A DNA stretch of 64,000 bases from positions 124,001 through 188,000 of the forward strand of contig NZ_CP042809.1 of the NCBI RefSeq assembly GCF_004014775.2, read 5' to 3'. This document shows, piece by piece, positions 8,147 through 38,599 of the stretch (positions are counted from its first letter, which is position 1; the number at the start of each line of letters is the position of its first letter). The stretch is from Acetobacter oryzoeni (GTDB lineage: Bacteria > Pseudomonadota > Alphaproteobacteria > Acetobacterales > Acetobacteraceae). The position numbers and the translations under genes were made by a program. The notes beneath the pieces were generated by a model. The model did no database searches. It worked only from the letters and a program-made list of their open reading frames with translations, and was not told where the DNA came from.

Positions 8147-8257
8147 GGCGGTATTCCTTCCGCCACACGATCTATGTCTTGGTAATCAATCAGTCCAACG
8201 CATTATTTATGTTATTCTGATCGCTATTATAGATTGTTTTATGCTATACAATGTTGC

Positions 8258-9136
8258 ATGACGTTAGAGCAGCTTCGCATTTTTGTCGGCGTGGCCGAGC
8301 GCGAGCATATGACCGCCGCAGCTCGCGCATTGCACGTCACGCAATCGGCGGCTTCGGCGGCAATCGCCGCGCTTGAGGAGCGACACGCGATCGAGCTGTT
8401 TCACCGCGTAGGGCGTGGTATCAGGCTGACGGAAGCCGGACGACTGTTACTGACCGATGCTCGCGGGATTTTAGCCCAGGCGGACGCAGCCGAGGCGATG
8501 CTGGGAGAGCTCAGCGGTCTGAAGCGGGGTACGCTGCGCGTCGTTGCCAGTCAGACCATTGCCGCCTATTGGTTGCCGCCGATCTTGGCTGTTTTTCACG
8601 AACGCTACCCGGCGATCGATATCGAATTGGCGATCAGCAATAGCGAACAGGCTGCGACCCGCGTTCGTGACAGCAACGCCGATCTAGGCATCGTCGAGGG
8701 TGAAATCGACGATGCCGCGTTTGAGAACTGGTCGGTTAGCGAGGACCGGCTGCTGCTTGTCTGCGCCACGCCGTTTGGTGACGCTCAAATCGACGCCGGA
8801 TGGCTACGACGAGCACGATGGGTGCTGAGGGAGCCGGGGTCGGGCACGCGTTCGACGTTCGACGGCCATCTGCGTAGCATAGGCGTCGATCCAACCACGC
8901 TCGATGTGACACTGACCATGCCATCCAACGAAAGCGTGCGAACGGCCGTAGAGGCCGGGGCAGGCGTTGCCGTTCTGTCGGCACTTGTGGTCGGGCCGGC
9001 TATCAAAGCAGGCATGCTGCATGTGGCGCCGATCACATTCCCTGCTCGCCCCTTCTTTGGATTGCGGCACAAGGAGCGTTATCGCACAAAAGCTACGGAT
9101 GCGCTGCTTGACGTGATCGGGTCGTGGCAAAAATAG
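8258..9136 (+). CDS. LysR-family regulator, probable controller of the divergent exporter
   Basis: About 292 residues. ATG at 8258 (MTLEQLRIFVGVAE) matches the usual LysR N-terminus; a TTG at 8234 would add eight atypical residues. The helix-turn-helix is at residues about 15-40 (HMTAAARALHVTQSAASAAI). The substrate-binding domain follows, with TLRVVASQTIAAYWLPPIL as its first strand region. It resembles YeiE/CysB-like regulators in its LARYEPAID-like segment FHERYPAIDIELAISNS. Divergent placement 111 bp from the YeiH-type gene supports local control. Confidence 0.88.
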   Translation: MTLEQLRIFVGVAEREHMTAAARALHVTQSAASAAIAALEERHAIELFHRVGRGIRLTEAGRLLLTDARGILAQADAAEAMLGELSGLKRGTLRVVASQTIAAYWLPPILAVFHERYPAIDIELAISNSEQAATRVRDSNADLGIVEGEIDDAAFENWSVSEDRLLLVCATPFGDAQIDAGWLRRARWVLREPGSGTRSTFDGHLRSIGVDPTTLDVTLTMPSNESVRTAVEAGAGVAVLSALVVGPAIKAGMLHVAPITFPARPFFGLRHKERYRTKATDALLDVIGSWQK

Positions 9137-9267
9137 GTTCCGATGTAGGCATTCTCAGAACGTCATCGTCGTAGGAATGCTAGAGCACTTCCCACGGCAG
9201 CCAATGCTGCCTCTGTATCCAAAAATCGACAGTCGCCTCTCCCCTCCCAAGCTGTCTGTTGGCTTCA

Positions 9268-9370
9268 AGAACTAAGCAGACTGACTGCTTTCGCCTCACC
9301 TCGGTCATTAAAGGTGCCGTTCCAGTTTCCGTAAAGCGGACGGTCTGTAATGTTCTCGTTATCCGCCGAT
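9268..9370. repeat. Dispersed intergenic repeat, copy 2
   Basis: About 100 bp, clearly related to 6931-7034 and, more distantly, to 10788-10880, 23776-23880 and 56931-57011. It begins AAGCAGACTGACTGCTTTCG and ends in ATCCGCCGATG. It lies upstream of the recombinase gene. Short ORFs across it are not convincing. Confidence 0.6.
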
Positions 9371-9424
9371 GTCCTCCTGCAGACTTCTGATTGCTGCATG
9401 TGCAGCTGATCAGGAGAAAGTATC

Positions 9425-10063
9425 ATGGAAAAGAAAACGCGTTTTCCATCGCCTACGCTAAAGGCGTCCGTGCCTTGGAATGCAGGAAAAATGGTTGGCG
9501 CCAAGCGGGCGCTCAAAGAAAAGCACGTCTGGGCTATTCGGTTTTGGCTGGGGAGCGAACAGCGTGTCAGAGACAGAGCTTTGTTTGATCTTGCTCTCGA
9601 TAGCAAACTCAGAGGCTGCGATCTTGTCAGCCTTCGTATCGGCGACATCGTTACCGGTGGTCAGGTGCGCCACCGAGCCATGGTCGTTAAGCAGAAAACC
9701 CGGCGACCTGTGCAATTCGAAATTACAGAAACAACGCGAGAAAGCGTGCGGGCGTGGCTGGAACATCGAGGTGGTGGCTTGAATGAGTATGTTTTTCCAA
9801 GTCGCCTAAGCGCCAAAACTCACCTGAGCACAAGGCAATACGCCCGGCTTTTGGATCAATGGGTCCAGGCGGTGGGACTGATCGCCGGGGAATATGGAAC
9901 TCATTCGCTCCGCCGGACTAAGGTTGCCATGATTTACAAACGAACCGGTAATATCCGAGCCGTGCAGATCCTGCTGGGTCATTCAAAACTGGATAGTACG
10001 GTTCGATACCTTGGGGTGGATGTCGAGGACGCTCTGGCTCTGTCGGAAGCCACTGATCTCTGA
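9425..10063 (+). CDS. Tyrosine site-specific recombinase (integrase)
   Basis: 212 residues comprising essentially the catalytic domain. Visible active-site residues: Arg in LDSKLRGCDLVSLRIGDI (about residue 61), the Lys in VVKQKTRRPV, HSLRRTK (His-x-x-Arg, about residue 160), GHSKLDST (second His) and the nucleophile Tyr in VRYLGVD (about 199). It lacks most of an N-terminal arm-binding/SAM-like domain, so it is shorter than phage integrases and similar to small plasmid or island recombinases. Start ATG at 9425 follows AGGAG. It is followed immediately by a TA pair. No attachment site was identified. Confidence 0.87.
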   Translation: MEKKTRFPSPTLKASVPWNAGKMVGAKRALKEKHVWAIRFWLGSEQRVRDRALFDLALDSKLRGCDLVSLRIGDIVTGGQVRHRAMVVKQKTRRPVQFEITETTRESVRAWLEHRGGGLNEYVFPSRLSAKTHLSTRQYARLLDQWVQAVGLIAGEYGTHSLRRTKVAMIYKRTGNIRAVQILLGHSKLDSTVRYLGVDVEDALALSEATDL

Positions 10064-10090
10064 AACAAACATGCCTCAGGAATTCTCTAC

Positions 10091-10133
10091 CTCCTCCCTA
10101 TGTGTACATGTTATGATGACACATAGGGAGGAG
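10091..10133 (+). promoter_or_regulatory. Perfect 15-bp inverted repeat covering the antitoxin ribosome-binding site
   Basis: CTCCTCCCTATGTGT at 10091-10105 and its exact complement at 10119-10133, with a 13-nt loop. The right arm contains the AGGGAGGAG Shine-Dalgarno sequence of the antitoxin start at 10137. As DNA it could be the TA operator; as RNA the hairpin would hide the ribosome-binding site. Both roles are inferred. Confidence 0.6.
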
Positions 10134-10136
10134 ACC

Positions 10137-10409
10137 ATGGGCCAGCATCTTTCAGATAACGTACCATTACCACAGAAAATCGGTGTTCGGGAGTTCCGGG
10201 GAAACCTGACAGCGTATCTGCGTCAGGTCAGGCAGGGCAGTACGATCTTGGTGACGTCTCATGACCAGGTCGTAGCCGAACTGCGGCCGCCAGCCTCTTC
10301 CTATCGCCCCCGTCGTCGACCCGGCGCATTGCGCGGACGGATCAGAATAAGCGAAGATTTTGATGAGACACCGCCGGACCTTCTTGAAAGCATGGAACGC
10401 GACTTGTGA
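10137..10409 (+). CDS. Antitoxin, Phd/YefM type
   Basis: About 90 residues. The start ATG at 10137 is chosen for its strong GGAGGAG site; the frame is open further upstream into the recombinase gene. The N-terminal IGVREFRGNLTAYLRQVRQG and TILVTSHDQVVAELRPP match the Phd/YefM DNA-binding fold. The C-terminal tail (ISEDFDETPPDLLESMERDL) is the usual acidic toxin-binding tail. It overlaps the PIN toxin by 4 bp (GTGA). Confidence 0.87.
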   Translation: MGQHLSDNVPLPQKIGVREFRGNLTAYLRQVRQGSTILVTSHDQVVAELRPPASSYRPRRRPGALRGRIRISEDFDETPPDLLESMERDL

Positions 10410-10789
10410 AGGTTCTGCTTGATACGCATGCGTTGCTGTGGTGGCTTTCGGACTCCGACCGTCTGGGTGAGACTGCACGGGAAATCATCGCAGATCCGGT
10501 TCACGATATTCTGGTGAGTACCGTGTCTCTCTGGGAGATTGCGATCAAAATCCGTATCGGGAAGCTGGATGCGGATATGAACGATATTCTGGCAGCCATT
10601 CCTGAAGAAGGTTTCTCTCTATTACAAATACAGACCGAGCACCTACAGATCCTGATGTCTTTGCCTCTGCATCATCGTGATCCGTTTGACCATCTCCTTA
10701 TGGCGCAGGCGCAAGCTGAACACGCCACATTTCTTTCGGAAGACGGACAAATGGATCATTACCCCATCAAGCGAATACGCTGTTCGTGA
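10406..10789 (+). CDS. PIN-domain toxin (VapC-like ribonuclease)
   Basis: 127 residues, start GTG overlapping the antitoxin stop. Acidic PIN-domain residues are visible: MKVLLDTHALLWWL (first Asp), VSLWEIAIK (Glu), HHRDPFDHLLMAQA (Asp pair) and FLSEDGQM (last Asp). These residues coordinate metal for RNA cleavage in VapC-type toxins. The WEIAIK variant places it in the group paired with Phd-type antitoxins. The C-terminus seems complete (DHYPIKRIRCS). Confidence 0.88.
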   Translation: MKVLLDTHALLWWLSDSDRLGETAREIIADPVHDILVSTVSLWEIAIKIRIGKLDADMNDILAAIPEEGFSLLQIQTEHLQILMSLPLHHRDPFDHLLMAQAQAEHATFLSEDGQMDHYPIKRIRCS

Positions 10790-25560: not shown

Positions 25561-26835
25561 TCATCTTGGCGAAGGCAACGTTGGCGTGTCGGATTTCTGT
25601 CCAGAGATATTGTCAATCCAATCCAGAATTCCGTCGAGCACGGCGTGCTTCACGGGAAACCAAGTTCCAGTTCTCATGCGTGCAATAAGGGTATGAAGCG
25701 CACTGATAAAGGCATCCGCTGATGTGAAATGATGGGTGAAAGCGTGAAAAGAATTATAATCCATAACGAGGCCGCCGCCGCTCAACCCTGCGAGCTTCCC
25801 GCACGCCGTCGCATAGGCGTCACCCTCATCATCGAAAAGCTCCTTTACGATGGCTAGCCCGATGATCTGACGCCGTCCGATGGAGACTTCGACATCTTCA
25901 CCGCCTACGACCAGTCTCGCTACCGCTTCGCGACCAAGATACCGAGCCGCACCGTTGATCTGGCGGATAGCGTCGTCGACTTCCTTACGGGTCGCAAGTC
26001 TCTTGCGATCAAGGGAGCGACTAAGACCAGCTTCCGTAGTCGGACTGTCCTTGGCCTGAATGAGAATGGCGACGGAGTCGGTCAGCACGAGATGGTCAAG
26101 TATCTCTTTGGACGTATCCTTACGTAGTGGATTCATCATGATACTCTCCGGCTTGAATGCACGTAACAAGCAAACCGAGATGTCGCGTTCCTGAAAATAG
26201 CCCGGATTAGTGCGCGTCAAAGAGTCGTGCCGGAATCCTGTACTTCCCTGGTAGCCATTCACTTCGGGTGTCATGTCGAGGACAAGGATATCATTGGGCG
26301 CCAGCTCACTCTTGAACACCGCTTGAATGGCACGATCATCGTCATCGCGCGTTCGCTGTCCGAACCAGTTTATCAAGACCTGATGAACGCTTTTAGCCGT
26401 CTCAGGATGGTAGGTGAGCAGATGAATATCCTCCTTGTCGGTGAGGCAGCTCCCACCATCCTCTAGAGCCGTCCTGAAGCTCATCCACTCATAGTTCTGG
26501 TCATCGAAGAAGTAGATATCGACTTCATCATACTTGAGAATGGCAAGTATCTCGCGGGAGAATGAGTCGTCTTCAAACAGAGGGGAGCGGATAATCAATG
26601 GCTGATCGTCATCATCAAAAAAGGCTGTAACTAGTGCGGTGGTCGTGACCGTCGTGGATGGCAGTGCCGGCAGGTACAGGGCAAATCCACCATTCATCTT
26701 CGCCGCTAATATTGCTTCTTTCTGCGTTTTTACAATCAGAGAATATTTTTCGTCCGTGCCAAGTCGAATAGGTATCAGGCCGTCGGCAAACTGCCCGACA
26801 AGCGACCTCACTTCAGGATGAAGGAGAGTCAGCAT
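25561..26835 (-). CDS. Unrecognised protein with a PD-(D/E)xK-like patch
   Basis: About 424 residues. ATG at 26835 (MLTLLHPEVRSLVGQFADGL) is chosen because GGAGG lies just upstream. I recognise no family. The segment LDHLVLTDSVAILIQAKDS at about residues 230-250 has an Asp, about ten residues, then Gln-x-Lys at a strand end, which resembles the D-(E/Q)xK core of restriction-type nucleases; this is inference only. An acidic N-terminal half (FFDDDDQPLIIRS, YFFDDQNYEW) and a C-terminal helical region follow. Its neighbours, a DUF4238 gene and a type I restriction operon, suggest a defence island. Confidence 0.6.
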   Translation of the reverse strand: MLTLLHPEVRSLVGQFADGLIPIRLGTDEKYSLIVKTQKEAILAAKMNGGFALYLPALPSTTVTTTALVTAFFDDDDQPLIIRSPLFEDDSFSREILAILKYDEVDIYFFDDQNYEWMSFRTALEDGGSCLTDKEDIHLLTYHPETAKSVHQVLINWFGQRTRDDDDRAIQAVFKSELAPNDILVLDMTPEVNGYQGSTGFRHDSLTRTNPGYFQERDISVCLLRAFKPESIMMNPLRKDTSKEILDHLVLTDSVAILIQAKDSPTTEAGLSRSLDRKRLATRKEVDDAIRQINGAARYLGREAVARLVVGGEDVEVSIGRRQIIGLAIVKELFDDEGDAYATACGKLAGLSGGGLVMDYNSFHAFTHHFTSADAFISALHTLIARMRTGTWFPVKHAVLDGILDWIDNISGQKSDTPTLPSPR

Positions 26836-27095
26836 AAACGCCTCCGGGTTAGTAGGTTGCATTGCAGAATTTCACCGCCCGGGATCGACGCCCAAACTAG
26901 ATGATATCGTCCGATACTGCAGCGGCAAAATAGAGCCAAGATATCGTCGGCTTTCAGTAGAGTCTTAAGGGTTTATCTGAACGATCGGAATAGAGTGAAG
27001 ACCTTCGCGGGTATCGTCCATATGAATGTCCGGTTTTATCGATCGTCCTGTACAAAGCCGACAGTCCGCTTGCGCCCCATTGCGGTCAAATAGAG
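26836..27095. other. Intergenic region
   Basis: No gene is seen. It contains GATATCGTC repeats (at about 26902 and 26940) and one short dispersed motif (GCCGACAGTCCGCTTGCGCC, 27057-27076). It lies between the unrecognised gene and the end of the restriction operon. Confidence 0.45.
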
Positions 27096-27833
27096 TTATT
27101 TTTGCAGCATCATTTCCGCCATCCCGTCCAGTTGAGCCTTATGTCGTTCCCAGTCCGGCATGGCACGTTCCATGAGCCCCCAGAAAGCAGGGCCATGATT
27201 GTGCTCCTTGAGGTGGCACAGTTCATGCAGGATGACGTAATCAATGCAATCACGCGGGGCTTTGACCAGATGCGGGTTTAGCGTGATGGTCCCACCCGGT
27301 GAGCAGTTGCCCCACTGGGTCTGCATCAGCTGAAGCTTCAGAGCGGGGGGCTTTGTCACCCACAGCGTTGTGGGAAGGAGGGCATTCAGACGGCTTCGAA
27401 ACACCTCCTGCGCCCGCGTAAAATACCAGAGTTCCAGCATCTTCTGGATCCGCAGAGCGTGACGTTCCTGTACGGACACTTCCAGACGCCCCCGCAGCAT
27501 CCGCACGGTCTCAGGCGTATCCGGCTGATGGTGCACTTTCAACAAATGCCGCCGCCCCAGATAGAAGTGGCTTTCTCCGCTGACATACGTGCGAGGCGTG
27601 GCATGTTCCTGCACCGCCCGGAAGTCCCGCAGCTTCTGCCAGATCCAGCGGGTTTTCTGGTGTAGCGCCTTGTCCAGATCAGCCTCTGTCGTGCCATCCG
27701 GGACAGAAGCCTCTACACGCAGATCCGGGTGCACCTTGATCCTCAGGGTTGTGCCGGGGCGCGCTCGGGGGATCAGGTTTACATGGATCTGCTCCCCTCC
27801 ATAGGTCAGAATGCGAGAAGGGGTTTCTTCCAT
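27096..27833 (-). CDS. YgjP-type zinc metallopeptidase (DUF45)
   Basis: 245 residues. The zinc-binding motif is VILHELCHLKEHNHGPAFWG (HExxH with a downstream His) at about residue 205, as in YgjP/WLM-type proteins. The middle holds WGNCSPGGTITLNPHLVKAP, another conserved block. It starts 2 bp after the hsdR stop and so is the last gene of the restriction operon. Genes of this type often accompany type I systems; its role there is not established, but it may process a subunit. Confidence 0.9.
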   Translation of the reverse strand: MEETPSRILTYGGEQIHVNLIPRARPGTTLRIKVHPDLRVEASVPDGTTEADLDKALHQKTRWIWQKLRDFRAVQEHATPRTYVSGESHFYLGRRHLLKVHHQPDTPETVRMLRGRLEVSVQERHALRIQKMLELWYFTRAQEVFRSRLNALLPTTLWVTKPPALKLQLMQTQWGNCSPGGTITLNPHLVKAPRDCIDYVILHELCHLKEHNHGPAFWGLMERAMPDWERHKAQLDGMAEMMLQK

Positions 27834-27835
27834 GT

Positions 27836-30800
27836 TCAGCCCCGTAGAGTATCAGCAGGACCAGCCCGCATGATCTGGATGACCTGCTCAATGATCTCCT
27901 GCGCCTTGTCCACGCCAAAGCCTGCTTTCTGGCCCGTGCTGAACAGCAGCGGCAGCAGTTCTTTCCTGACCGCCTTTTCCATATCCGGGCGACTGAGCGA
28001 GTTCTCCCGTACAGCCTTGTCCACGATGCTGTCGATCTCGAATGCCAGATCAACCCAGCGCTGGTTCTCCTCGTCCGTCTGCTTATGGTTGAAGATGGCC
28101 GCCAGTGTTTTGAGGAACACGCCATAATAGGCCTGCGCATGGCGATGCCCGTCAAAAACAGACGGAATATTGTTGAGTTTGCGTTTCGCTACCTGATCTT
28201 CAAATTCCTGAAACAGCATGAACTGCTTGAGAGGATGGTCGAACAGGCTCTCCGCCTCCTCAATCACCTTGCGCAGCAGGGCCGAGAACGCTTCCTTCGC
28301 GTACGGATCATCCTGCATTTCGTGGTCGATCATCTTCGTCACACGGGTGCGGATCAGGTCCGTCTCGTTGCGGGTTTTGTCCTCACTCCAGTTTTCGGGT
28401 TCGTTGTCTTCGGGCTTCTGGCCCATCTTGCCCACGGCATAGAGCCCCTGGGACTCATGCACTTTCACGCCCGCCACATGCCGGTCCAGCAGCTTTTTGA
28501 CTTGCTCGGCATACTGGTCGAAGTCCACCGTCTCACCGGTATCCTGCATGACCATCTGGCGCAGGCTGGTCATCTGCTTCAGCGTTTCCTTGTAGGTGGC
28601 GCGGTCTTTTTCCGTAAAGCTGGAGTCTTCAAAGAAGGCCACAGATTGCAGCGCCACTTTCAGGCAGGCGGCAAACTTCGTCAGCGCTTCATAAAAGTCA
28701 TCCCGACGCTTGAGGTTCACATCCACCATCTGGCCGTGTTCCTCCACCATGCGCGGCATCAGCACGGCGCGAAGCTGTTGGAGGTCGCTCCTGTTCTTCA
28801 CGCCCTCAAAAATGGCCCAGAGTGCTTTGTGCAGAGCGGGGAGTTCGCGGTATTCCGTGCTCATCTGGCTATACAGCCCGGCAATGTCCTTCGGGTCATA
28901 TCCGCCGACATTCTCGGCTGCCAGCTCGTCATACCGGGCCAGTGTGGTGTCCAGTTCCGCCAGAATACCCCGGTAATCAATCAGCAGCCCATGCTTCTTC
29001 TGGTCATGCAGGCGGTTTACACGCGCAATGGCCTGCAACAGGTTGTGCTGCTTGAGCGGCTTGTCGATATACAGCACAGCATTTTTCGGCTCATCAAAAC
29101 CGGTCAGCAGCTTATCGACCACAATGATCAGCCTGAGGTCTGGATCCTTCTCGAAGCGCTCAATAACCCCGCGTGTGTAATCCTCTTCGTTCTGGCTGCC
29201 GACATTGTTTTTCCACCAGTCCTGAATCTCGGGCTGTTTGCGCTCATCGACTTCCGTATGGCCCTCGCGCGTGTCGGGCGGACTCATGACGATGGCGCTC
29301 TCAAACAGACCGACCTCATCCAGATACTGCTTGTAACGGATGGCAGACAGCTTGCTGTCACAGGCCAGCATGCCCTTGAGGCCGCTGTCGATATTGCTGT
29401 CAAAATGCGTCGCCAGATCCATGGCGATCAGCCTGATGCGGTCATCCGCCTTGTAAACCTGATTGGCGCGGGCAAAGCGCTTCTTGAGGTCCGTGACCTG
29501 CTCTTCGGTCAGCCCCTGCGTGATGCGCTCGAACCAGGCATCAATGGCGCGGTCATTCACATCCAGATCGGGCTTGCGCTCTTCATACAACAAAGGTGTC
29601 ACGGTGCCATCCGAGACGGCCTGCTGCATGGTGTAGGAGTGGATGATCTTGCCGAACCGGCTGGTGGTCTCACTCCCCTTGAGCAGCGGCGTGCCTGTAA
29701 AGGCAATGAAGGCGGCATTGGGCAAAGCGTGCTTCATGCGGGCATGGTTCTCACCGCCCTGACTGCGATGCCCCTCATCCACCAGCACGATGATATCCGC
29801 ACTGTCATTATGGCACTCGGGCAGCGTGGTGGCAGTGTGGAACTTGTTGATGAGCGAGAAGATGATGCGCTCCTGCCCATGTCCGATCTGCTGCGCTAAG
29901 CGGCGACCTGAAGTGGCCAGTGCCTCCTCCTTGTCCTTCTTGTCCGCCAGTTCGCCACCGGTGGAGAAGGTCATGCTTAACTGGCGTTCCAGATCCTTGC
30001 GGTCTGTGACGACCAGAATGCGGCACTGTTTAAGGTCCTCATCCAGAATGAGGGCACGGCTGAGGAACACCATCGTGAAGGACTTGCCGGACCCGGTCGT
30101 GTGCCAGACCACGCCGCCCTCACGCCCGCCGTCGGCGCGGCGGGACTTGATGCGTTCCAGCAGGCGTTTGATGCCGAAAACCTGCTGATAGCGCGCGACG
30201 ATCTTGCCGGCCTTGCGGTCGACCAGCGTGAAGAACCGCGCCATGTCCAGCAGACGCTCGGGCGAGAGCAGGCCGATCAGCAGCCGGTCCTGATCCGTGA
30301 CATGCAGCGGGCGAGACGTCCAGTCCTCGAACCAGTCCCGCGCAGGGGGCTTCCGGTCGGCAAACAGCGCGTCTTTCTGCGCTCCTGGAAGCGGCGTGTT
30401 CTTGAGCGCCTCCATCCGGCTTTCGGGAATGTCCTCTTCCTTCCAGCTTGCCCAGAATTTTTTGGGTGTGCCGCAGGTGCCATAGCGCCCGTCATGCCCG
30501 GTGATGGAAAGCAGAAGCTGGCTGTAGGCAAAAAGTTGAGGGATTTCATCCTTGTTCTGATTGCGGATGCTCTGGGAAATCCCGGCCTCCACTGTCGGGC
30601 CTTTGCCCGGCTGACCATCGGGGCGCTTGGCCTCGATCACCGCCAGCGGAATGCCGTTGACGAAACACACGATATCCGGTCTGCGCGTCTGTGTCAGATC
30701 CGTGCGTAGGACGCTGAACTCTTCGGTAAAGGTAAAGCTGTTATTGGCCGGGTTCTGCCAGTCGATGAGGGCGATGGTCGGGTTCGCCTTGCGCCCGTTG

Positions 30801-31141
30801 ATGAACTCGGTAATGGCGATGCCGAACAGCAGATGTGTTGTCATCTTTTCATTGGCATCACGCAGGCCGGAGACGAAGTCCGGATGTGTGACGATGGAGA
30901 CAAGCCGCTCAATAGCCGGATCGGACAGGGCGTGCTCCTGTCCTTCAAACGTAAAACGGCGTTTTTTCAGTTCCGCCCGCAGGAGTGTGTCCAGCACCAC
31001 GGCACTCTGCTTGCCGCCCCGCAAGGCCAGTGCTTCGGACGGGGGCACAAATCGCCAGCCGAGGGTGCTGAGCAGAGCCAGTGCGGGCAGTTTGGCGCTG
31101 TATTCTTCCTGAAATTTCGGGGCGGGGGGCATAGTTTTCAA
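27836..31141 (-). CDS. hsdR: Type I restriction enzyme R subunit
   Basis: 1101 residues. The N-terminal nuclease domain shows PDIVCFVNGIPLAVIEAKRP (PD-ExK-type). The helicase motifs follow: WHTTGSGKSFTMVFLSRAL (Walker A), VDEGHRSQGG (DEAD-like), AFIAFTGTPLLKG, and later LLTGFDEPKNAVLYIDK. HsdR translocates and cuts DNA with the M2S2 complex. The upstream hsdS gene ends 23 bp before; the metallopeptidase follows by 2 bp. All key motifs are intact. Confidence 0.95.
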   Translation of the reverse strand: MKTMPPAPKFQEEYSAKLPALALLSTLGWRFVPPSEALALRGGKQSAVVLDTLLRAELKKRRFTFEGQEHALSDPAIERLVSIVTHPDFVSGLRDANEKMTTHLLFGIAITEFINGRKANPTIALIDWQNPANNSFTFTEEFSVLRTDLTQTRRPDIVCFVNGIPLAVIEAKRPDGQPGKGPTVEAGISQSIRNQNKDEIPQLFAYSQLLLSITGHDGRYGTCGTPKKFWASWKEEDIPESRMEALKNTPLPGAQKDALFADRKPPARDWFEDWTSRPLHVTDQDRLLIGLLSPERLLDMARFFTLVDRKAGKIVARYQQVFGIKRLLERIKSRRADGGREGGVVWHTTGSGKSFTMVFLSRALILDEDLKQCRILVVTDRKDLERQLSMTFSTGGELADKKDKEEALATSGRRLAQQIGHGQERIIFSLINKFHTATTLPECHNDSADIIVLVDEGHRSQGGENHARMKHALPNAAFIAFTGTPLLKGSETTSRFGKIIHSYTMQQAVSDGTVTPLLYEERKPDLDVNDRAIDAWFERITQGLTEEQVTDLKKRFARANQVYKADDRIRLIAMDLATHFDSNIDSGLKGMLACDSKLSAIRYKQYLDEVGLFESAIVMSPPDTREGHTEVDERKQPEIQDWWKNNVGSQNEEDYTRGVIERFEKDPDLRLIIVVDKLLTGFDEPKNAVLYIDKPLKQHNLLQAIARVNRLHDQKKHGLLIDYRGILAELDTTLARYDELAAENVGGYDPKDIAGLYSQMSTEYRELPALHKALWAIFEGVKNRSDLQQLRAVLMPRMVEEHGQMVDVNLKRRDDFYEALTKFAACLKVALQSVAFFEDSSFTEKDRATYKETLKQMTSLRQMVMQDTGETVDFDQYAEQVKKLLDRHVAGVKVHESQGLYAVGKMGQKPEDNEPENWSEDKTRNETDLIRTRVTKMIDHEMQDDPYAKEAFSALLRKVIEEAESLFDHPLKQFMLFQEFEDQVAKRKLNNIPSVFDGHRHAQAYYGVFLKTLAAIFNHKQTDEENQRWVDLAFEIDSIVDKAVRENSLSRPDMEKAVRKELLPLLFSTGQKAGFGVDKAQEIIEQVIQIMRAGPADTLRG

Positions 31142-31163
31142 ATATCCTGCGAATTGAAATGAC

Positions 31164-32368
31164 TTAATCGACCGTCACGCGGCGCTTGCCGGTGAGAAGC
31201 TGTTGCATCAGGGCTTTCTTTTCCTGACGCAGACGGGAAAGGTCGGATTCAAGGACCATAATTTCTTCGTCTGCCGTTGTCAGGACGGCAGCGATGGCTT
31301 TTTGCTCAGGGAGAAATGGAGATGAAATTATAAAGTTTGAAAACGTTTTTTTGTTTATAATTGGAACAGCCTGCTTGGCCGTGAGCTTATCTATTTGTTC
31401 TTTGTTAGAAAAAATCTGATAATAAATGAACTCATTATTATAATTTTCTTTAACCTCTATAGCGTTAATTTGTTGATTTGTAATGCAATCCCGTGTTGCA
31501 ATTCCCATTTTTCCAATGGTTCCGATACATGAGAAAAATATTGATCCTGCAGGGATCATACGAGAGATCGATGCACCTTTTTCACTCAACATCCGTTCTG
31601 ATTTTTTTACATACTTGCAGTTGCCCAAATCAACAGGCGTAATAAATAGAAATTTTTCTCCGTACAGGCTTTCATCTTTTGTAGAAGGTGTGTTTCCTGT
31701 TGTTATATTTCCTACTTCATATAATTTGTAATTCTTCCACTCCCCCGTGAACCCCGGCAGGCGTTTTTTGCCTGTGAGGAGTTGCTGCATGAGGGCTTTT
31801 TTCTGCTGCTGGCTGTTGGCCAGAAGCTTCTCCGTCCCCTCAATCGCACGATCCCACGTCGAGAGGATCGCCGCGATCTTCTTCTGTTCGGGGAGAGGAG
31901 AATTGGGAATGTCTTAATCATTTCAGCGTTCAAGACGCCCATCGTGCCACCCTGCGCCCAACGCTTAAGAATATTTTGGGTAAAATTGGAAGCGAGAATG
32001 TACTGAATATACGCTGGAATAATACGGTCTTTATTTAACGAAATTCTTAAAAGACGTGGATTTATGATTCCTTGTTGGCACGAGTTCGATAGGAGTAGTG
32101 TTTGCCCAATCGTTCCGACAAGACTAATTAATATATCTCCGGGTGAAACGGAACAGGATTTTAGTTCATTATATTTATTTTCATCGATGAAATAGTCTCC
32201 ATAATTTTCATCATTTGAAATTACTTGTTCTTGCCCGTAAATTTTATATCCGAATGGTTTATAATATTCTTTTTTTAGAGAAGATCCAAAAGGACCGGCT
32301 TTTACTGCTGGTTTCCCTTTTGCACCCAGATTTTCGATTGTAGCGTGTTTCCACCCTTCAGGAAGCAT
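31164..32368 (-). pseudogene. hsdS: Type I restriction S subunit with an internal frameshift
   Basis: Two target-recognition domains are present but lie in different frames. The N-terminal part (32368 down to about 31910, LPEGWKHATIENLGAKGKPA) ends out of frame after EMIKTFPILL; the second frame resumes as PNSPLPEQKKIAAILSTWDR and continues through LLTGKKRLPGFTGEWKNYK to the stop at 31164. A single-base change in the 31886-31915 stretch would give about 400 residues, normal for HsdS. Both recognition domains are AT-rich compared with neighbours, usual for variable TRDs. It may be truly inactive or a sequencing error. The start overlaps hsdM by 11 bp. Confidence 0.82.
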
Positions 32369-33884
32369 AACCCAGCTCCTTCAGATAAACGTCCATCTGG
32401 GCTTCCAGCTTCGCCAGTTCCGCCTTGATCTCCGCTCGTTCGGCCCGCACAGCGTTCAGGTCGATTTCTTCTTCTTCCTCAAACGTATCGACATAACGCG
32501 GAATGTTCAGGTTGTAGTCATTCTCCCTGATCTCGTCCGGCATGGCGAGATGGGCGTATTTGTCCACATCCTTGCGGGCACGGTAGGTGTCCACAATCTT
32601 GGTGATGTTCTCTTCGGTCAGCACGTTCTGGTTCTTGCCCGCCCTGAACTCGCGGCTGGCGTCAATGAACAGCACATCCTTCGTCTTGCGGTCCTTGCGG
32701 AAAATCAGGATGGCGGCCGGAATTCCCGTGCCGAAGAACAACTTTTCTGGCAGGCCGATCACGGCATCCAGCAGGTTTTCCTCAATCAGCTTCTGGCGGA
32801 TCTTGCCTTCCGAACTGCCCCGGAACAGCACGCCATGCGGCACGACCACGCCCATGCGGCCCGTGCGGTCTTTCAGGGTGGCAAGCATGTGCAGGATAAA
32901 GGCGTAATCGCCTTTGGTCTTGGGCGGCACGCCACGGGCGAAGCGGTGATGCACGTCCTGCTCCGCTTCGTCATGCCCCCATTTGTCGAGACTGAAGGGC
33001 GGGTTGGCCGTCACTACGTCAAAGCGCATCAGGTGGTTTTTATCATCCAGCAGCTTGGGGTTGCGGATGGTGTCGCCCCATTCAATGCGATGGTTGTCTT
33101 CGCCATGCAGGAACATGTTCATCTTGGCAAAGGACCATGTGGAGCCAATGGCCTCCTGCCCATACAGGGCGTAATCCTTGCTGCCCTTGTGGTTCTGCGT
33201 CACCTGCCGTCCGCATTTCATGAGCAGCGAAGCCGAACCGCAGGCCGGGTCACAGATACTCTCGCCCGGTTGCGGGTTCAGAATACGGGCCAGAAGTTCG
33301 CTGACTTCCGGCGGGGTATAGAACTCCCCGGCTTTCTGCCCACCACTGGCGGCGAAGTTCTTGATCAGGAACTCATAGCCGTTGCCGATCACGTCCAGAT
33401 TGCCCACGCGGGAAGGGCGCAGGTTCAGGTCAGGCTTGTGAAAATCTTCCAGAAGATGGCGCAGAATGGTGTTCTTCTGCTTCTCATCGCCCAGCTTGTC
33501 GGAATTGAAGCTGATGTCCTGGAAGACGCTCTTGCCTGCGTCTTTCAGTTTGGTGCCGTTCGCTTCTTCAATGGCGTGCAGGGCTTTATCAACCCGCTCA
33601 CCGTTTCCGGGGGCGTTGCGCTCTTTATAGAGCGTATAGAAGTCCGAGCCCTTGGGCAGAACAAAGCGTTCCTGCGCCATCATGGCTTCGATCAGATCGG
33701 GGTTGTCGCCATATTCCTTTTTGTAGCTGTCATAATGGTCCTGCCAGACATCGGAGATGTATTTCAGGAACAGCATGGTCAGCACGTAATCGCGGTAGGT
33801 GTCGGGGCTGACGGTGCCACGAAAGGTATCGCAGGCGCTCCACAGCGCCTTGTTGATGGTATCCTGTGAAATCTGCTCGGTCAC
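32358..33884 (-). CDS. hsdM: Type I restriction M subunit (N6-adenine methylase)
   Basis: About 508 residues from a GTG at 33884 (VTEQISQDTINKALWSACDT); the ORF is open a little further upstream. Methylase motifs are clear: FYTPPEVSELLARIL, ICDPACGSASLLMKCG (motif I, SAM binding) and VVTANPPFSLDKWG (NPPF, motif IV). HsdM with HsdS forms the methyltransferase. It is the second gene of the operon, overlaps hsdS by 11 bp and follows a half-length S-like gene by 34 bp. Confidence 0.95.
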   Translation of the reverse strand: MTEQISQDTINKALWSACDTFRGTVSPDTYRDYVLTMLFLKYISDVWQDHYDSYKKEYGDNPDLIEAMMAQERFVLPKGSDFYTLYKERNAPGNGERVDKALHAIEEANGTKLKDAGKSVFQDISFNSDKLGDEKQKNTILRHLLEDFHKPDLNLRPSRVGNLDVIGNGYEFLIKNFAASGGQKAGEFYTPPEVSELLARILNPQPGESICDPACGSASLLMKCGRQVTQNHKGSKDYALYGQEAIGSTWSFAKMNMFLHGEDNHRIEWGDTIRNPKLLDDKNHLMRFDVVTANPPFSLDKWGHDEAEQDVHHRFARGVPPKTKGDYAFILHMLATLKDRTGRMGVVVPHGVLFRGSSEGKIRQKLIEENLLDAVIGLPEKLFFGTGIPAAILIFRKDRKTKDVLFIDASREFRAGKNQNVLTEENITKIVDTYRARKDVDKYAHLAMPDEIRENDYNLNIPRYVDTFEEEEEIDLNAVRAERAEIKAELAKLEAQMDVYLKELGYAS

Positions 33885-33918
33885 GAACTCAAATCCTGTT
33901 TCAAAACGTAAGGGAGTG

Positions 33919-34515
33919 TCAGCCCGCCAGAAGGTCTCTGGCAAGCCCGGTCATGATCTGTTGATTGGTCTGGCGCAGGCGGTGGAGAAGGTCTTCCTCG
34001 CGCTGCATGGCGCTGGCCAGACCGACAATCTGTTCCTGTCGAGGTAAAGAGGGCAGCAGAACGGGTGTGGCCTCCAGCACCGGCCGGGCAATGTTGCGGA
34101 CGAGGGTGGAACTCTGGGCGTTCTGCTCCAGATGCCGCTGGGCGGGTTCCTGATTGAGCCACCACGCCAGATAGGCTGGCAGCACATCCGAGCGCGACAC
34201 ACGCAGCAAAAAGAAGTGCGGAGCGGCGACAGCCTGAAGGCTGCCGATGCTCTCATTGATCAGAACCGCCAGTGACACATTGCCACGGGCAGGGAAGAGA
34301 ATATCGCCCGGACGCAGCCAGTCCGGCTCACGCCGTCCGGCCACTTCGGCACGCACGCAGGACGTCCAGTCCACCCCAGAAGGCGAGGTGTCACGCATCT
34401 GCACGACGAGCGTTTCCGCACCAGAAACGGGGTCAATCCGTCCTCTGAACGGATGGCCTGCCGAGATGCTGGCCACTGCCACAAGATCCGTTTTCTGTGC
34501 GCCATTTGGTTTCAT
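33919..34515 (-). CDS. Half-length type I S-subunit-like protein
   Basis: 198 residues. It contains one target-recognition-like domain (PDWLRPGDILFPARGNVSLA is the typical end of a TRD) followed by SLPRQEQIVGLASAMQREED, the conserved start of the central coiled-coil helix, and then stops. A standard S subunit would have a second TRD. It is the first gene of the restriction operon, so it is likely expressed with hsdM. Half-S subunits can work as dimers; here it may provide a second specificity beside the frameshifted hsdS. Confidence 0.8.
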   Translation of the reverse strand: MKPNGAQKTDLVAVASISAGHPFRGRIDPVSGAETLVVQMRDTSPSGVDWTSCVRAEVAGRREPDWLRPGDILFPARGNVSLAVLINESIGSLQAVAAPHFFLLRVSRSDVLPAYLAWWLNQEPAQRHLEQNAQSSTLVRNIARPVLEATPVLLPSLPRQEQIVGLASAMQREEDLLHRLRQTNQQIMTGLARDLLAG

Positions 34516-34611
34516 GTTATTGTGGTAGGCGATCGTGAAAGCAACGTCAACAGGATTTTACCATTGGCTTTCGTGCAGAGAAACGCTCCCGTAAATTTTG
34601 TCTTTCTTGGG

Positions 34612-34806
34612 TTATGACACGTCATGACGGTGTCACGCAGGTGTCATTTCTATCGCGCCTTTGGTGCTCCCTTAAGTGCCAGAATGACGGCGTCATGACG
34701 CCACCTCAAATGGTGTCATGGGGCCAGTGACACTGTCAGGCCCTGTCATTGCAGCCGTCATGACGGGGCCATGACAGCTGTCACGCAAGGCGTCATTGAT
34801 GTCATG
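34612..34806. repeat. Cluster of CGTCATGACG palindromes and half-sites
   Basis: Eighteen GTCA or TGAC tetramers occur in about 195 bp, including three perfect CGTCATGACG decamers at 34620-34629, 34691-34700 and 34756-34765 (65-71 bp apart). Such a density suggests cooperative binding by a regulator, a partition/replication protein or the restriction-operon controller. The binding factor is unknown. Confidence 0.7.
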
Positions 34807-34885
34807 AGTCCTGAAAAACGGCAGAAAACAGCCATTTCCCCGTTTTTCGGCTTGTCCTAGCTTTTGGGTGTGTGAGGGCACGCTA

Positions 34886-34936
34886 CCTCAATTTCATACG
34901 CACCCTTCGGATGCATATGAAATTGAAGGGTTTTTT
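34886..34936 (+). terminator. Long hairpin with T-run (terminator, or oriT-like)
   Basis: CCTCAATTTCATACGCA (34886-34902) pairs with TGCATATGAAATTGAAGG (34912-34929) with one bulge, and TTTTTT follows at 34931. This fits an intrinsic terminator on the + strand, although no + strand gene is upstream. The loop side reads CATACGCACCCTTCGGAT, which vaguely resembles MOBQ-type nic regions. Confidence 0.5.
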
Positions 34937-34946
34937 CTTCTCTATC

Positions 34947-34990
34947 GCGGCATTTTTGCGAAGCAAAAATTAAAGCCGCTCTTTTTCTTT
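34947..34990 (+). terminator. Nested hairpin with T-rich tail
   Basis: GCGGC (34947-34951) pairs with GCCGC (34975-34979), enclosing ATTTTTGC (34952-34959) with GCAAAAAT (34963-34970). CTCTTTTTCTTT follows. Together with the previous hairpin it suggests tandem termination in front of the next gene. Confidence 0.5.
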
Positions 34991-35174
34991 GAGTTCAGGT
35001 CTCTTGCAGCTGCGCTGCGCCATGATGACGGGTGTGACGGTGTCATTTTTTCGAGCTGGGCGTTGTGAGGCGCATGACCCTAAATTCCCCAGAGGATTTT
35101 GTTCCCTGTATCGTTGGGGAGTGAGGATTGGGGTGGTGCGTCTCGTTCCTTCATGCTTTGAACGAGAGAAAACA

Positions 35175-35414
35175 ATGTCTGATCGTACTACGATTTCGTC
35201 CGCCACCGAGGTGGACCTCATGCAAATTGTCGCCCTGCACAGGCTGCTTGATTTTGCTGCCAGTGAGGCTCTTGCCGGTAACGTGGATGACAGTGCCCTG
35301 GAAGGCGTGGTCATCCTGACACGCATGGTTGGCCACAAGGTCAGGCTGGTTGCCAACAGGGTGCTGGGTGGTGATGCCTTTTCCTGCGATAACTGCGACC
35401 CATACTGCGAATGA
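35175..35414 (+). CDS. Small unrecognised protein with a Cys-rich tail
   Basis: 79 residues from ATG at 35175 (MSDRTTISSATEVDLMQIVA), preceded by a weak GAGAGAAAA site. The middle is a predicted amphipathic helix pair (LHRLLDFAASEALAGNVDDS, VVILTRMVGHKVRLVANRVL), and the end is CDNCDPYCE, three Cys in eight residues that could bind a metal or form a disulfide. I know no matching family. It is followed 100 bp later by another unrecognised gene. Confidence 0.5.
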   Translation: MSDRTTISSATEVDLMQIVALHRLLDFAASEALAGNVDDSALEGVVILTRMVGHKVRLVANRVLGGDAFSCDNCDPYCE

Positions 35415-35519
35415 GCAGTAAGCCGCTACAGCTTAATTTTCCCTTTTCATAATACACGCATGTTCTCAGAATGCTCGCCGAGCAATGGGAAACGTGCGTC
35501 CACCTCACGGACACTTCAA

Positions 35520-36158
35520 ATGACACCCGCTTTACCGAATAATGATCGTTTTAATAATGCTCTTCCCGCCTGGATGTTTGCTGGTTTTTTCCGCCCGAAC
35601 GACATTGAGCGTTACGCTCAGCTTTCTCATGATCTGCTGGTGACGCCGACGCCGCAGATGCTGGAGTTCTGTGATGGAGGTCGCGAACTGGTCGAGCGAT
35701 ATAACCGCGACAAGGCCTTATGGCGCGCCTTTCGCCAGCGTGTGGCAATGTATCACCGCGATCTTCCCGCCTGGCAGGAGCAGGTTCGCGTCAATAACTA
35801 CCGGATCGGCTCCATTGTGGAACTGGCTGTTTATCGGCGTTTGCTGCAAGAAAAGGAGAGCGGCCTCACGATCATGGTTCAGCCACCCATTCGAGGACTG
35901 GGAAACAGAGGATTTGCGGATTTCGGTCTGTATTTCAAAGGACACCCCACAGTCTACATTGAGGTCGCCGGGACCGTTACGAGTACCGGGCGGTCGGTCT
36001 CTGAAAATGCTGAGAAATTCCGTATTGGTATTGAGGAACGTCTGATGCGCTACATGGGCGTTGCACCTGTAGAGGTGATCCATATCGACGAGGTCTGCGA
36101 TGTGTCCACACAGACCGAGCGGGTTCGTCAGGCAATTGAACGCGCAAAAATTGCATAA
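35520..36158 (+). CDS. Unrecognised protein, possible nuclease-like fold
   Basis: About 212 residues from ATG at 35520 (MTPALPNNDRFNNALPAWMF); an ATG at 35460 is also open. The C-terminal half has RIGSIVELAVYRRLLQ (a Glu in a helix), then GFADFGLYFKGHPTVYIEVA, i.e. Asp, ten residues, Glu-x-Ala, and EKFRIGIEERLMRY. This order resembles a PD-(D/E)xK nuclease but the Lys is replaced by Ala, so it is a weak inference. A nuclease or NERD-like role near the restriction operon would fit, but no function can be assigned. Confidence 0.55.
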   Translation: MTPALPNNDRFNNALPAWMFAGFFRPNDIERYAQLSHDLLVTPTPQMLEFCDGGRELVERYNRDKALWRAFRQRVAMYHRDLPAWQEQVRVNNYRIGSIVELAVYRRLLQEKESGLTIMVQPPIRGLGNRGFADFGLYFKGHPTVYIEVAGTVTSTGRSVSENAEKFRIGIEERLMRYMGVAPVEVIHIDEVCDVSTQTERVRQAIERAKIA

Positions 36159-36495
36159 TTCATTTTATCAAAAAACAACTGCTGACAGGGAAAATTGAAT
36201 CTTACTGGATGGTCTCTATCCGGTGGCGCGGGCCAGTCGGTTCTGGCTGGTCCATATTGATAAACTCCCTATTGATCGTGAATTTGTGCAAATCTGTTTC
36301 CAGCAATCCTGGAAAGACTTGTCTTATGAAATCCGGGTCGCTGTATGTGCGATAAAGGCAGCAGTCAGGAGGTGGCCACCTCCTGACTGCTGGAGAGAGC
36401 GGGTCGGGTCAGGACAGGCCATAATGGGCCGCGAATGAGTATGACCGCCTCTTCTTTTCCTCGGGCCTGAACGGATACCTGGGAGAAAATCCCGG
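36159..36495. other. Non-coding leader upstream of the IS110 recombinase, candidate bridge-RNA region
   Basis: No gene is seen. It contains a perfect 34-bp palindrome without loop (36359-36392; half-site CAGCAGTCAGGAGGTGG) and hairpins such as GGGA-GAAAA-TCCC just before the start codon. In IS621-like IS110 elements the left end upstream of the recombinase encodes a bridge RNA; this gap of about 300 bp would be that region. The exact left end of the element was not found. Confidence 0.35.
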
Positions 36496-37404
36496 ATGAC
36501 AAGCATAGGACAATGGGAAATGGCACAAACATGCGCAAAGCTGGAGAGTAATGCCGTTGTTGTTGGCATTGACGTTTCCAAGGATCATCTTGATGCCGCT
36601 CAATATCCATCTGGTGACCTGATCCAGACTTCCAACGATACGAAAGGCCTCAGAACGCTTCTACGGTGGATTGGCAGGCAACGTGCTGTGCATGTTGTCT
36701 TCGAGGCGACCGGCCCTTTCCATCGTCAACTGGAGAGTCATCTGGCCAAGGCCGGCATCCCATTCTCACGGATCAATCCGCGGCATGCAAGAAAGTTTGC
36801 TGAAGCAACCGGAAAGCTTGCAAAAACGGATCGGGTAGATGCCGTGATGCTGGCTAGGATGGGGGCACTTCTCGAACCCAGGACGTCTGAAATCTGCAAC
36901 GAGCAACAGTCTGCGCTCCAGGAACTGGCAGCTGCACGACGAAATCTGATCCGTGACAGGACAGCCCTGCTCAATCGCCAGCAAAACCTGCAGCTCAGTC
37001 TTCTGAAACGTCTGACACGCTATAGACTTCGTCAGATAGAAGCTCAGATCGCAGCCATCGATCAGGCAATCAGCGAACTGATCACGACAGACGGGAGCCT
37101 CTCTCGAAAACGCGCTATTCTGGTCAGTATTCCAGGTATTGGAGAGGCCACGGCAGCGATGCTAATTGCTGATATTCCCGAACTGGGAACACTGGAGAAT
37201 GGACAGGATGCTGCGCTCGCAGGCCTGGCTCCTGTCACCAGACAGTCAGGAAAGTGGCAGGGTAAAAGCTTTATTCGGGGTGGTCGGATTCATGTCAGAA
37301 ACGCCCTGTACATGCCTGCTCTGGTTGCTATGCGGCATAACCCTGATCTTCAAAGCATCTATCTTAGACTGACGGATAAGGGAAAGCATGCAAAAATGGC
37401 TCGG
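36496..37404 (+). pseudogene. IS110-family recombinase, C-terminally truncated by IS3 insertion
   Basis: 303 residues. The RuvC-like DEDD domain is visible: VVVGIDVSKDHLDAAQYPSG (first Asp), VFEATGPFHRQLES (Glu), KTDRVDAVMLARMGALL (Asp pair). The C-terminal half shows PGIGEATAAMLIADIPELG and GLAPVTRQSGKWQGKSFI followed by ALYMPALVAMRHNP, the transposase_20 part with the catalytic Ser. The frame then meets the IS3 end at 37403 in GKHAKMA, so about 20-30 last residues are missing. Lengths and layout resemble IS621. Start is at 36496, or at 36520. Confidence 0.85.
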
Positions 37405-37441
37405 TAATCCCCCCACTTTTAGTGGGGTTCTGACTGAGAAT

Positions 37442-38449
37442 TCAGGCAATTGCTTTTAGTTTCTGAGCGGGTGTGAACCCGGCGTTCCCCATGTTGGGTC
37501 TGTCATGGTTATATGTCCAGAGCCATTGTGTTGCGACCTCCTGTACGTCCTGAATGCTTTCAAACAGAGACTGCTCCAGCCATTCCTGCCGGACTGTTCT
37601 GTTGTAGCGTTCGATATAGGCGTTCTGTTGCGGATTGCCCGGTTGCCTATAGATCAAGGTAATTCCTTGTTTTGCGGCCCATGAAACCAACGTATGAGTG
37701 ATATATTCAGGGCCATTATCCATTCTGATAGCCCCTGGCCTGCCGCGCCACTCCATAACCTGTTCCAGACAGCGGACAACCCGACAGGCCGGCAAGGAAA
37801 AATCAACCTCAATCGCCAGTCCTTCACGATTAAAGTCATCCAGAATGTTCAGGAGACGAAAAGCGCGTCCATCCAAAAGCCTGTCTGCCATAAAATCCAT
37901 GGACCAGACCGTGTTGGGAAGGGTCGGAACCGAAAGTTTTTCAGGCTTTTCGCGAACCAGACGTCTGCGGGGTTTAATCCGCAGGTTAAGTTCCAGCTCC
38001 CGATAGATCCGATAAACCCGCTTATGGTTCCAGGGTTGTCCCTGCACATTACGTAGATACAGGAAACACAGGCCAAATCCCCATCTCCTGTGAGCCTGGG
38101 TCAGTCCCACCAGAAGAGCGGCAATCCGGTCGTTCTCCGCTGCCAGTCGCGGACGATAGCGAAAGCAGGTTTCCGATATCCCAAAAATCCGACAGGCCAG
38201 CGCAATGCTGACCCCGTGATGCGCCACAGCCTCTACGGCCAGTTCCCGGCGCTGGACTGGCCTCTTCATTTTTTTCCAAGGGCTTCCTTCAGGATATCCG
38301 TCTGCATGCTCAGATCCGCATACATACGCTTCAGCCGACGGTTCTCCTCTTCCAGAGCCTTCATTTGACTGATCATAGACGCATCCATGCCGCCATATTT
38401 CGCGCGCCACCGGTAAAACGTGGCATTGCTGATCCCATGCTCCCGGCAC
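37442..38449 (-). CDS. IS3 OrfB, DDE transposase
   Basis: The relevant part starts near [20 protein letters not shown] (about 38270); residues before it are out-of-frame OrfA sequence. The catalytic domain shows [20 protein letters not shown] (first Asp), [12 protein letters not shown] (second Asp) and [18 protein letters not shown] (Glu), as in the rve/IS3 family. It is produced as an OrfAB fusion through -1 frameshifting. All catalytic residues are present. Confidence 0.92.
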
Positions 38450-38571
38450 AGCTCTGGAACCGGGACGCCACCTTCAGCCTGACGGACCACACCCATGATC
38501 TGCGCGTCAGTAAAGCGATCACTCTTCATCAGAATCTCTTCATTCCATACGCTGAGAAAATTCTCATTCAA
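38266..38571 (-). CDS. IS3 OrfA (helix-turn-helix)
   Basis: 101 residues (about 87 from an internal [20 protein letters not shown]). The helix-turn-helix [20 protein letters not shown] matches IS3 OrfA, followed by the leucine-zipper-like [18 protein letters not shown]. It ends in GKK at an A-run; a -1 shift on GGAAAAAAATGA fuses it to OrfB as [11 protein letters not shown]. Confidence 0.9.
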
Positions 38572-38599
38572 AAGCCACTCTTTTTATGGGGGGATTACC

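Follow-up and report, generated by a model that had tools for sequence, protein, structure and literature searches.

Why is one short intergenic stretch of plasmid contig C2 of Acetobacter oryzoeni so densely packed with GTCA/TGAC tetramers? The source genome comprises 3.15 Mb in four contigs, and a 64,000-nucleotide stretch of C2 (246,434 bp), referred to here as the window, was analyzed. An initial annotation had reported eighteen of these tetramers in about 195 bp, where one or two would be expected, and suggested that they could regulate cooperatively, serve plasmid replication or partition, or act as a recognition array. Recounting yielded the same 18 motifs (starts 34615 to 34801; array 34615..34804, without assigned strand) against a window mean of 1.84 per 195 bp. 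The next densest 195-bp place in the window contains 7, and no 195-bp stretch there holds as many as 18 copies of any other tetramer pair. Sixty 64-kb sequences simulated from the dinucleotide transitions of the window gave a GTCA/TGAC maximum of 8. Equal density was not seen elsewhere on C2, where no stretch outside the array holds at least 10 motifs, nor in a 12-kb piece of the chromosome, where the maximum was 6. The second-densest stretch noted on C2 (9 per 195 bp) is located within a P-loop gene, read as such by eye (L012 13700-14250, corresponding to C2 about 221,700-222,250). The three perfect palindromes described previously with a spacing of 65-71 bp were recovered as CGTCATGACG at 34620..34629, 34691..34700 and 34756..34765 (no strand), at intervals of 71 and 65 bp; the 3.15-Mb genome contains CGTCATGACG at 5 places, including these 3, and the reversed control word at 3 places. 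A further group annotated at 35024-35046 consists of three motifs (starts 35026, 35035 and 35042; 35026..35045, no strand) and is largely kept in three relatives (L033, L034, L036). Helical phasing of the array motifs peaked at 10.5 bp but fell short of significance for the window copy (p 0.13-0.19). An Rfam scan of 34400-35300 returned zero matches at E up to 1, and a weak terminator scan around the array detected nothing.

The cluster proved to be conserved. A DNA search with 34516-35174 gave matches in 15 of 299 family genomes from several genera, several of these matches being short (24-27 bp) and restricted to a 21-bp core described below or to other parts. In the substantial matches, 10 to 20 motifs are clustered within 195 bp; one of them (L039/L023) uses another repeat word. 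Agreement among ten aligned copies (66-87% identical to the window) was 0.892 at motif columns versus 0.682 at spacers, and when the motif mask was shifted circularly, none of the 201 shifts reached the conservation of the motif columns, which suggests that the motifs are under selective constraint. Across 190 family genomes, dense arrays of GTCATGAC were found as copies of the present block, all other fetched matches staying at or below 8 motifs per 195 bp; viral contigs gave no match to the pattern. The search of Acetobacteraceae for the cluster and its neighbors, as had been recommended, also identified ten Acetobacter plasmid records in PLSDB (including pAPA01-020), which match the left part, the match ending in all ten at window position 34714. 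The three of these records whose features were read (L001, at 6235, L002 and L003) contain the restriction genes and carry an IS3-type transposase gene at this break. Tandem doubling of the block of array and nick-box-like sequence was observed at L038 6910-8650 and L181 5600-7450, with a distant pair of small-protein and nuclease-like genes between the copies. Among the paper titles and abstract openings found on equivalents or on integrative mobilizable and orphan-oriT elements, none names this site.

The surroundings of the array were compared by blastn, and the stretch common to relatives extends over 27056..36253 (no strand), starting at 27056 against L033 and L034 and ending at 36236-36253 against L036, L178 and L180. 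No repeats were found near its left end (26700-27200). Its order is a YgjP-like metallopeptidase gene (Pfam match), hsdR, hsdS pieces, hsdM, a half-hsdS, the array, the oriT-like box, a small protein and a PD-(D/E)XK-like gene. The restriction operon starts with the half-hsdS gene (33919..34515, minus strand), which encodes a 198-aa half-HsdS-like protein matching an NCBIfam type I specificity family weakly (E 7e-4) and is kept upstream of hsdM in 8 copies compared at the protein level (L001-L003, L033, L034, L131, L132 and L178; 84-94% identical). Two overlapping half-length hsdS frames (31164-31790 and 31712-32368) were noticed in the window, and several relatives have a single HsdS of about 380-405 aa, suggesting that the specificity gene of the window copy may be frameshifted. 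On the other side of the array, a 79-aa protein of no known family (35175..35414, plus strand) is modeled as two helices, and this model found no convincing fold match. It is followed by a 212-aa protein (35520..36158, plus strand) with a PD-(D/E)XK-like model, in which D134 and E148 are invariant and the ExK position lacks the lysine; a PDB sequence search with the nuclease-like alignment gave nothing at E up to 1.

The position in front of a restriction operon, emphasized in the initial annotation, is correct for the window, but other systems adjoin the array in relatives. The same type I restriction system is found beside it in the window and in L001-L003, L033, L034, L131, L132, L178 and L180, and its place is taken by a distant type I system whose HsdM is about 30% identical (L035, L037), by HmaB-HmaC (L040), by a DrmD-type SNF2 helicase with a MAD1-like helix-turn-helix end (L036) or by a PIN-domain/Phd-type pair (L181). 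Because the same block is found beside unrelated defense systems, the tie to restriction is not specific but incidental. Eight block copies carry the oriT-like box together with a following recombinase: a tyrosine recombinase in L034, L035, L040 and L182, and a large serine recombinase in L033, L036, L178 and L180, where the block continues with a second, inverted box before the recombinase gene. These inverted boxes at the far cassette end have neither array nor hairpin. The best NCBIfam match of the L036 recombinase is CcrB (E 7e-21, 74 bits versus a cut-off of 900), and the serine recombinases of L033, L178 and L180 are its relatives. Where these relatives have inverted box and recombinase, the window has DNA without counterpart in them (36254..38599), containing an IS110-type transposase gene (36496-37407) and an IS3-type element (37403-38599). 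Lacking the right end of its relatives, the window copy has probably lost the capacity for autonomous excision.

A companion of the array is the sequence AGGGCACGCTACC (34875..34887, plus strand), which resembles the nick box of MOBQ-type oriTs in 9 of 13 letters of the published consensus (PMC3832669). A hairpin directly 3' of the box (34888..34926, plus strand) and a second one (34947..34979, plus strand) fold as single-stranded DNA with -10.8 and -11.5 kcal/mol (z -6.14 and -3.15), so the two long hairpins that had been noticed after the cluster are real by folding energy. A fit of 9 in 13 letters is common, occurring at 612 places on C2; a hairpin follows at 16 of them, and the longest stem belongs to the present box. 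Over 24 copies, 89% of the pairs in the box hairpin are standard and three pairs are changed on both sides, which is modest support as the copies are similar to one another. The box, AGGGCACGCTACCnCAATT across the copies, is followed by the hairpin, with the 79-aa and nuclease-like genes next in most copies. Allowing at most 1 mismatch, 12 of the 49 genomes of the genus contain the box, and the reversed control had 0 matches. Among named genomes, 47 stretches match it exactly; all 20 of those from Acetobacteraceae and 4 of the 27 others were examined, and the hairpin was absent after the box in all 4 examined stretches from outside the family. The single match in viral contigs lies within a coding frame.

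Box and array do not always occur together. In a scripted search of 25 loci, an array (at least 9 motifs in the 330 bp upstream) was present at 17 and absent at 15 of 32 box places, a sample that is biased since many loci were obtained by similarity to the array region. Boxes without array but with hairpin are found in L109, L118, L123, L137 and L143. Thirteen of the 17 array places contain the 21-bp core with at most 3 changes and 4 do not. Three small Acetobacteraceae MOBQ plasmids have a AAGGGCGCACTT-type box, immediately a hairpin and then mobQ in the same orientation, with a divergent mobilization gene on the other side of the box; two of the three are nearly identical there. Among the block copies, L040 has, downstream of the box and oriented like it, a gene for a 700-aa relaxase (MobA_MobL and MobQ matches). 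This relaxase gene was found in 1 of 249 genomes, L040 is the single case of a relaxase neighbor, and none is located beside the window copy. The L174 box stands divergent to an operon encoding a protein that matches TraL weakly and Zeta toxin equally weakly. This locus also contains a 1,115-aa gene after the nuclease-like gene (7292-10637) that has no PADLOC match and is possibly further cargo.

Between array and box lies the core, AACGGCAGAAAACAGCCATTT (34817..34837, plus strand), an imperfect inverted repeat. With up to 2 mismatches allowed, it occurs in 33 of 299 family genomes (reversed control 0). It is placed after the array in most copies, with the box 58 bp from the core start. Two sets of core loci were used to ask what accompanies it, the first comprising 30 loci classified out of 41 core matches and the second 30 fetched loci. 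A significant repeat array (p at most 0.005) was present at 13 of 30 loci in the first set and at 13 of 30 genome loci in the second, the latter being less favorable to an origin reading than the former. Removal of copies of the present block and of repeats of one locus left 14 other array-plus-core loci from both sets, and a replicative helicase/primase-type gene adjoins 8 of these. VapE is found beside L042 and L090, a DUF5906/PriCT-2 gene beside L085 (array word GGGGAAGAT), an AAA_25 helicase gene beside L084 (TGTCACG) and DUF927-type genes beside L068 and L216 (CGGAAC and GGGCCA), the gene of L216 carrying a Cch-type HTH domain. In L039 and L095, arrays of GACGCAAA and GGGTGACGC are located at the end of P-loop genes (assigned by eye) that have no Pfam name and are 56% identical; a toprim gene precedes the one in L039. 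Beside VapE genes the array word is GTGCTA, in pGO128, its near-copy L090 and an A. ascendens plasmid. No replicase was recognized in the up to 3 kb fetched at the remaining 6 of 14 loci, namely L066 (integrase beside), L208, L210 and L215 (upstream of a mraZ-like gene), L211 and L235 (short contig piece). In L210 and L215 the core lies amid six CAGAAC copies, about 130 bp upstream of a gene that we take from its sequence to be mraZ-like.

A separate test did not take the core as its starting point. Of 46 DUF927 and 41 VapE matches, 30 each were taken, and after exclusion of one incomplete locus among the 60, arrays were detected at the 3' end of 14 of 59 genes and in none of 59 control segments taken from within these genes. 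The core itself (at most 3 changes) was present at 1 of these 59 ends. It also stands alone or at chromosomal places, such as upstream of a rplM-like gene or beside DnaA-box-like sequence, and 2 of 14 viral contigs with core have an array. As a general origin mark the core was rejected, being too broad in view of the chromosomal places, the lone cores and the single occurrence at 59 helicase gene ends. In L070 and L069 (also L086 and L087), which represent two genomes of one genus, the core adjoins TTATCCACA-type DnaA-box sequences.

Could the present array serve the plasmid itself? This part of the initial proposal did not hold: the array was rejected as the plasmid's own origin, with the RepA homologue of C2 (35% identity to RepA of pAPA01-020) about 57 kb away beside other repeats, CGTCGGCAATGAACAC. 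One variant of these RepA-side repeats (L009 1701-2023, C2) reads TGTCGGCAGAAAACAC, and GGCAGAAAACA is common to it and the core. A panel of 14 helicase/primase proteins had 0 matches in 24 related loci (287 kb) or on C2. The DUF927 gene of the source genome carries another array (GGAACA) and its VapE gene carries none, so that a cognate initiator, if any exists, was not recognized. Published satellite origins are located directly 3' of rep and have two iteron sets around an AT-rich stretch (PMC6092414), and for SGI1 an iteron origin combined with mobilization is described (PMC7433901). The window has motifs on both sides of the core, 18 to the left and 3 to the right, the right-hand set being small and about 190 bp off. 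The arrays of other words beside helicase genes, the published layout of satellite origins and the combination known from SGI1 are the grounds on which the array is read as iterons.

The explanation that we favor, tentatively and at somewhat less than even confidence, is that array and box combine an iteron-type origin with an orphan oriT and form the cis-acting backbone of mobilizable defense cassettes. The tetramer cluster would be part of a compound cis-acting site that stays constant in integrative mobilizable cassettes with interchangeable defense operons. The GTCATGAC motifs would most likely be iterons: a replication initiator would bind them in several copies and open the DNA near the core, and the resulting origin would be episodic, being used once the cassette has been excised. 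The box with its hairpin, 38 bp past the core, would act as a MOBQ-type origin of transfer and be nicked by a relaxase supplied by another element. The array with its conservation and companions, the exchanged defense operons and the recombinase (once relaxase) genes nearby in relatives were observed directly; initiator binding, origin activity, nicking and mobility are inferred. From the conserved array, the probable start of DNA transfer beside it and the location at the junction of cassettes with interchangeable defenses, the cluster looks like a hitch-hiking control site and not like a switch for a single restriction system. A replication- or transfer-type site is the best supported of the functions originally proposed. 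A wider formulation is more doubtful: acetic acid bacteria may harbor defense cassettes with a double hitch-hiker, a fused, coding-free origin of replication and transfer that usually lacks its own replicase and relaxase, at whose junction defense operons are exchanged and small helical and nuclease-fold proteins stay constant.

Somewhat unlikely, yet the strongest of the competing explanations, is an operator array to which a repressor or nucleoid-type protein binds cooperatively, controlling the divergent defense operon and the 79-aa gene and delaying restriction after transfer. The array does lie upstream of both, at about 100 bp from the first gene of the divergent defense operon and about 370 bp from the 79-aa gene, and defense operons are directed away from it in several relatives. 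However, an identical motif precedes unrelated operons, the defense genes of L040 are directed towards the array, a weak scan found no sigma-70-type promoter match in 34480-35200, and no recognized regulator gene adjoins the array in the examined copies. It is also unlikely, and slightly more so, that the motifs are sites for a transfer accessory protein, forming part of oriT and having no role in replication. This would agree with the finding that array copies, whether obtained by DNA or by pattern search, adjoin the box wherever the contig continues without insertion. The 79-aa protein could, by analogy, be such an accessory protein; MobC of MOBQ4 is described as shorter than 100 aa and as unlike others. 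Against this stand the 15 of 32 box places without array and the core, which ties these arrays to box-less arrays adjacent to helicase genes. Improbable is a recombination site, with the box used by the large serine recombinase for attachment or inversion and the array as its accessory site. In L033, L036, L178 and L180, the recombinase does lie just outside a pair of inverted boxes, about 1.55 kb apart, that enclose the 79-aa and nuclease-like genes, but all four copies have one orientation, and the box is also found near tyrosine recombinases, a relaxase or, in the stretch examined, no recombinase. It is furthermore followed by a long conserved hairpin, which is unexpected at attachment or inversion sites of serine recombinases. 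A plasmid partition site is very improbable: dense short repeats like those of the array are typical of centromeres, but the copies are spread over several genera and adjoin exchanged operons, C2 has its ParB-like gene about 66 kb from the array, and no par gene was noticed on reading the frames listed beside the array.

How bacteria pass on and exchange defense systems is currently under active discussion. A constant cis-site beside restriction, Hma, DrmD-like and toxin-antitoxin-type genes provides a sequence handle for finding such cassettes and allows testing whether helper elements mobilize them. The data also indicate a simple rule, in which satellite-type helicase genes bear repeat arrays at their 3' end (in 14 of 59 tested).

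Reading array and box as an iteron-type origin with an orphan oriT invites comparison with known systems. As in PICI/SaPI origins (layout in PMC6092414), copies of one short repeat are packed into a confined region; motifs stand on both sides of an AT-richer core too, but the right-hand set is small and distant. Different here are the oriT-like box in between, the neighbors (a defense operon and a nuclease-like gene) and the missing rep gene beside the array, the panel having recovered no initiator gene directly 5' of it in the 24 related loci or C2. SGI1 (PMC7433901), likewise integrated and mobilizable, is an island whose iteron origin lies apart from oriT, but it carries its own rep beside oriV, whereas none was found in the present block, and the cargo here is defense. 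With the MOBQ oriTs of pGE2, pGX1 and Novacetimonas p2 (archetype RSF1010) the site shares an AGGGC-type box, an inverted repeat immediately beside it and, in L040, a relaxase downstream; it differs at 4 of 13 consensus letters and in the lack of an adjacent relaxase in the window copy. SCC elements, finally, employ Ccr serine recombinases and a Cch helicase. The L036 recombinase scores far below the CcrB cut-off and the present block has no helicase, but this recombinase still matches CcrB best, restriction cargo is exchangeable in both, and elsewhere (L216) core and array are found beside a DUF927 gene with a Cch-type HTH.
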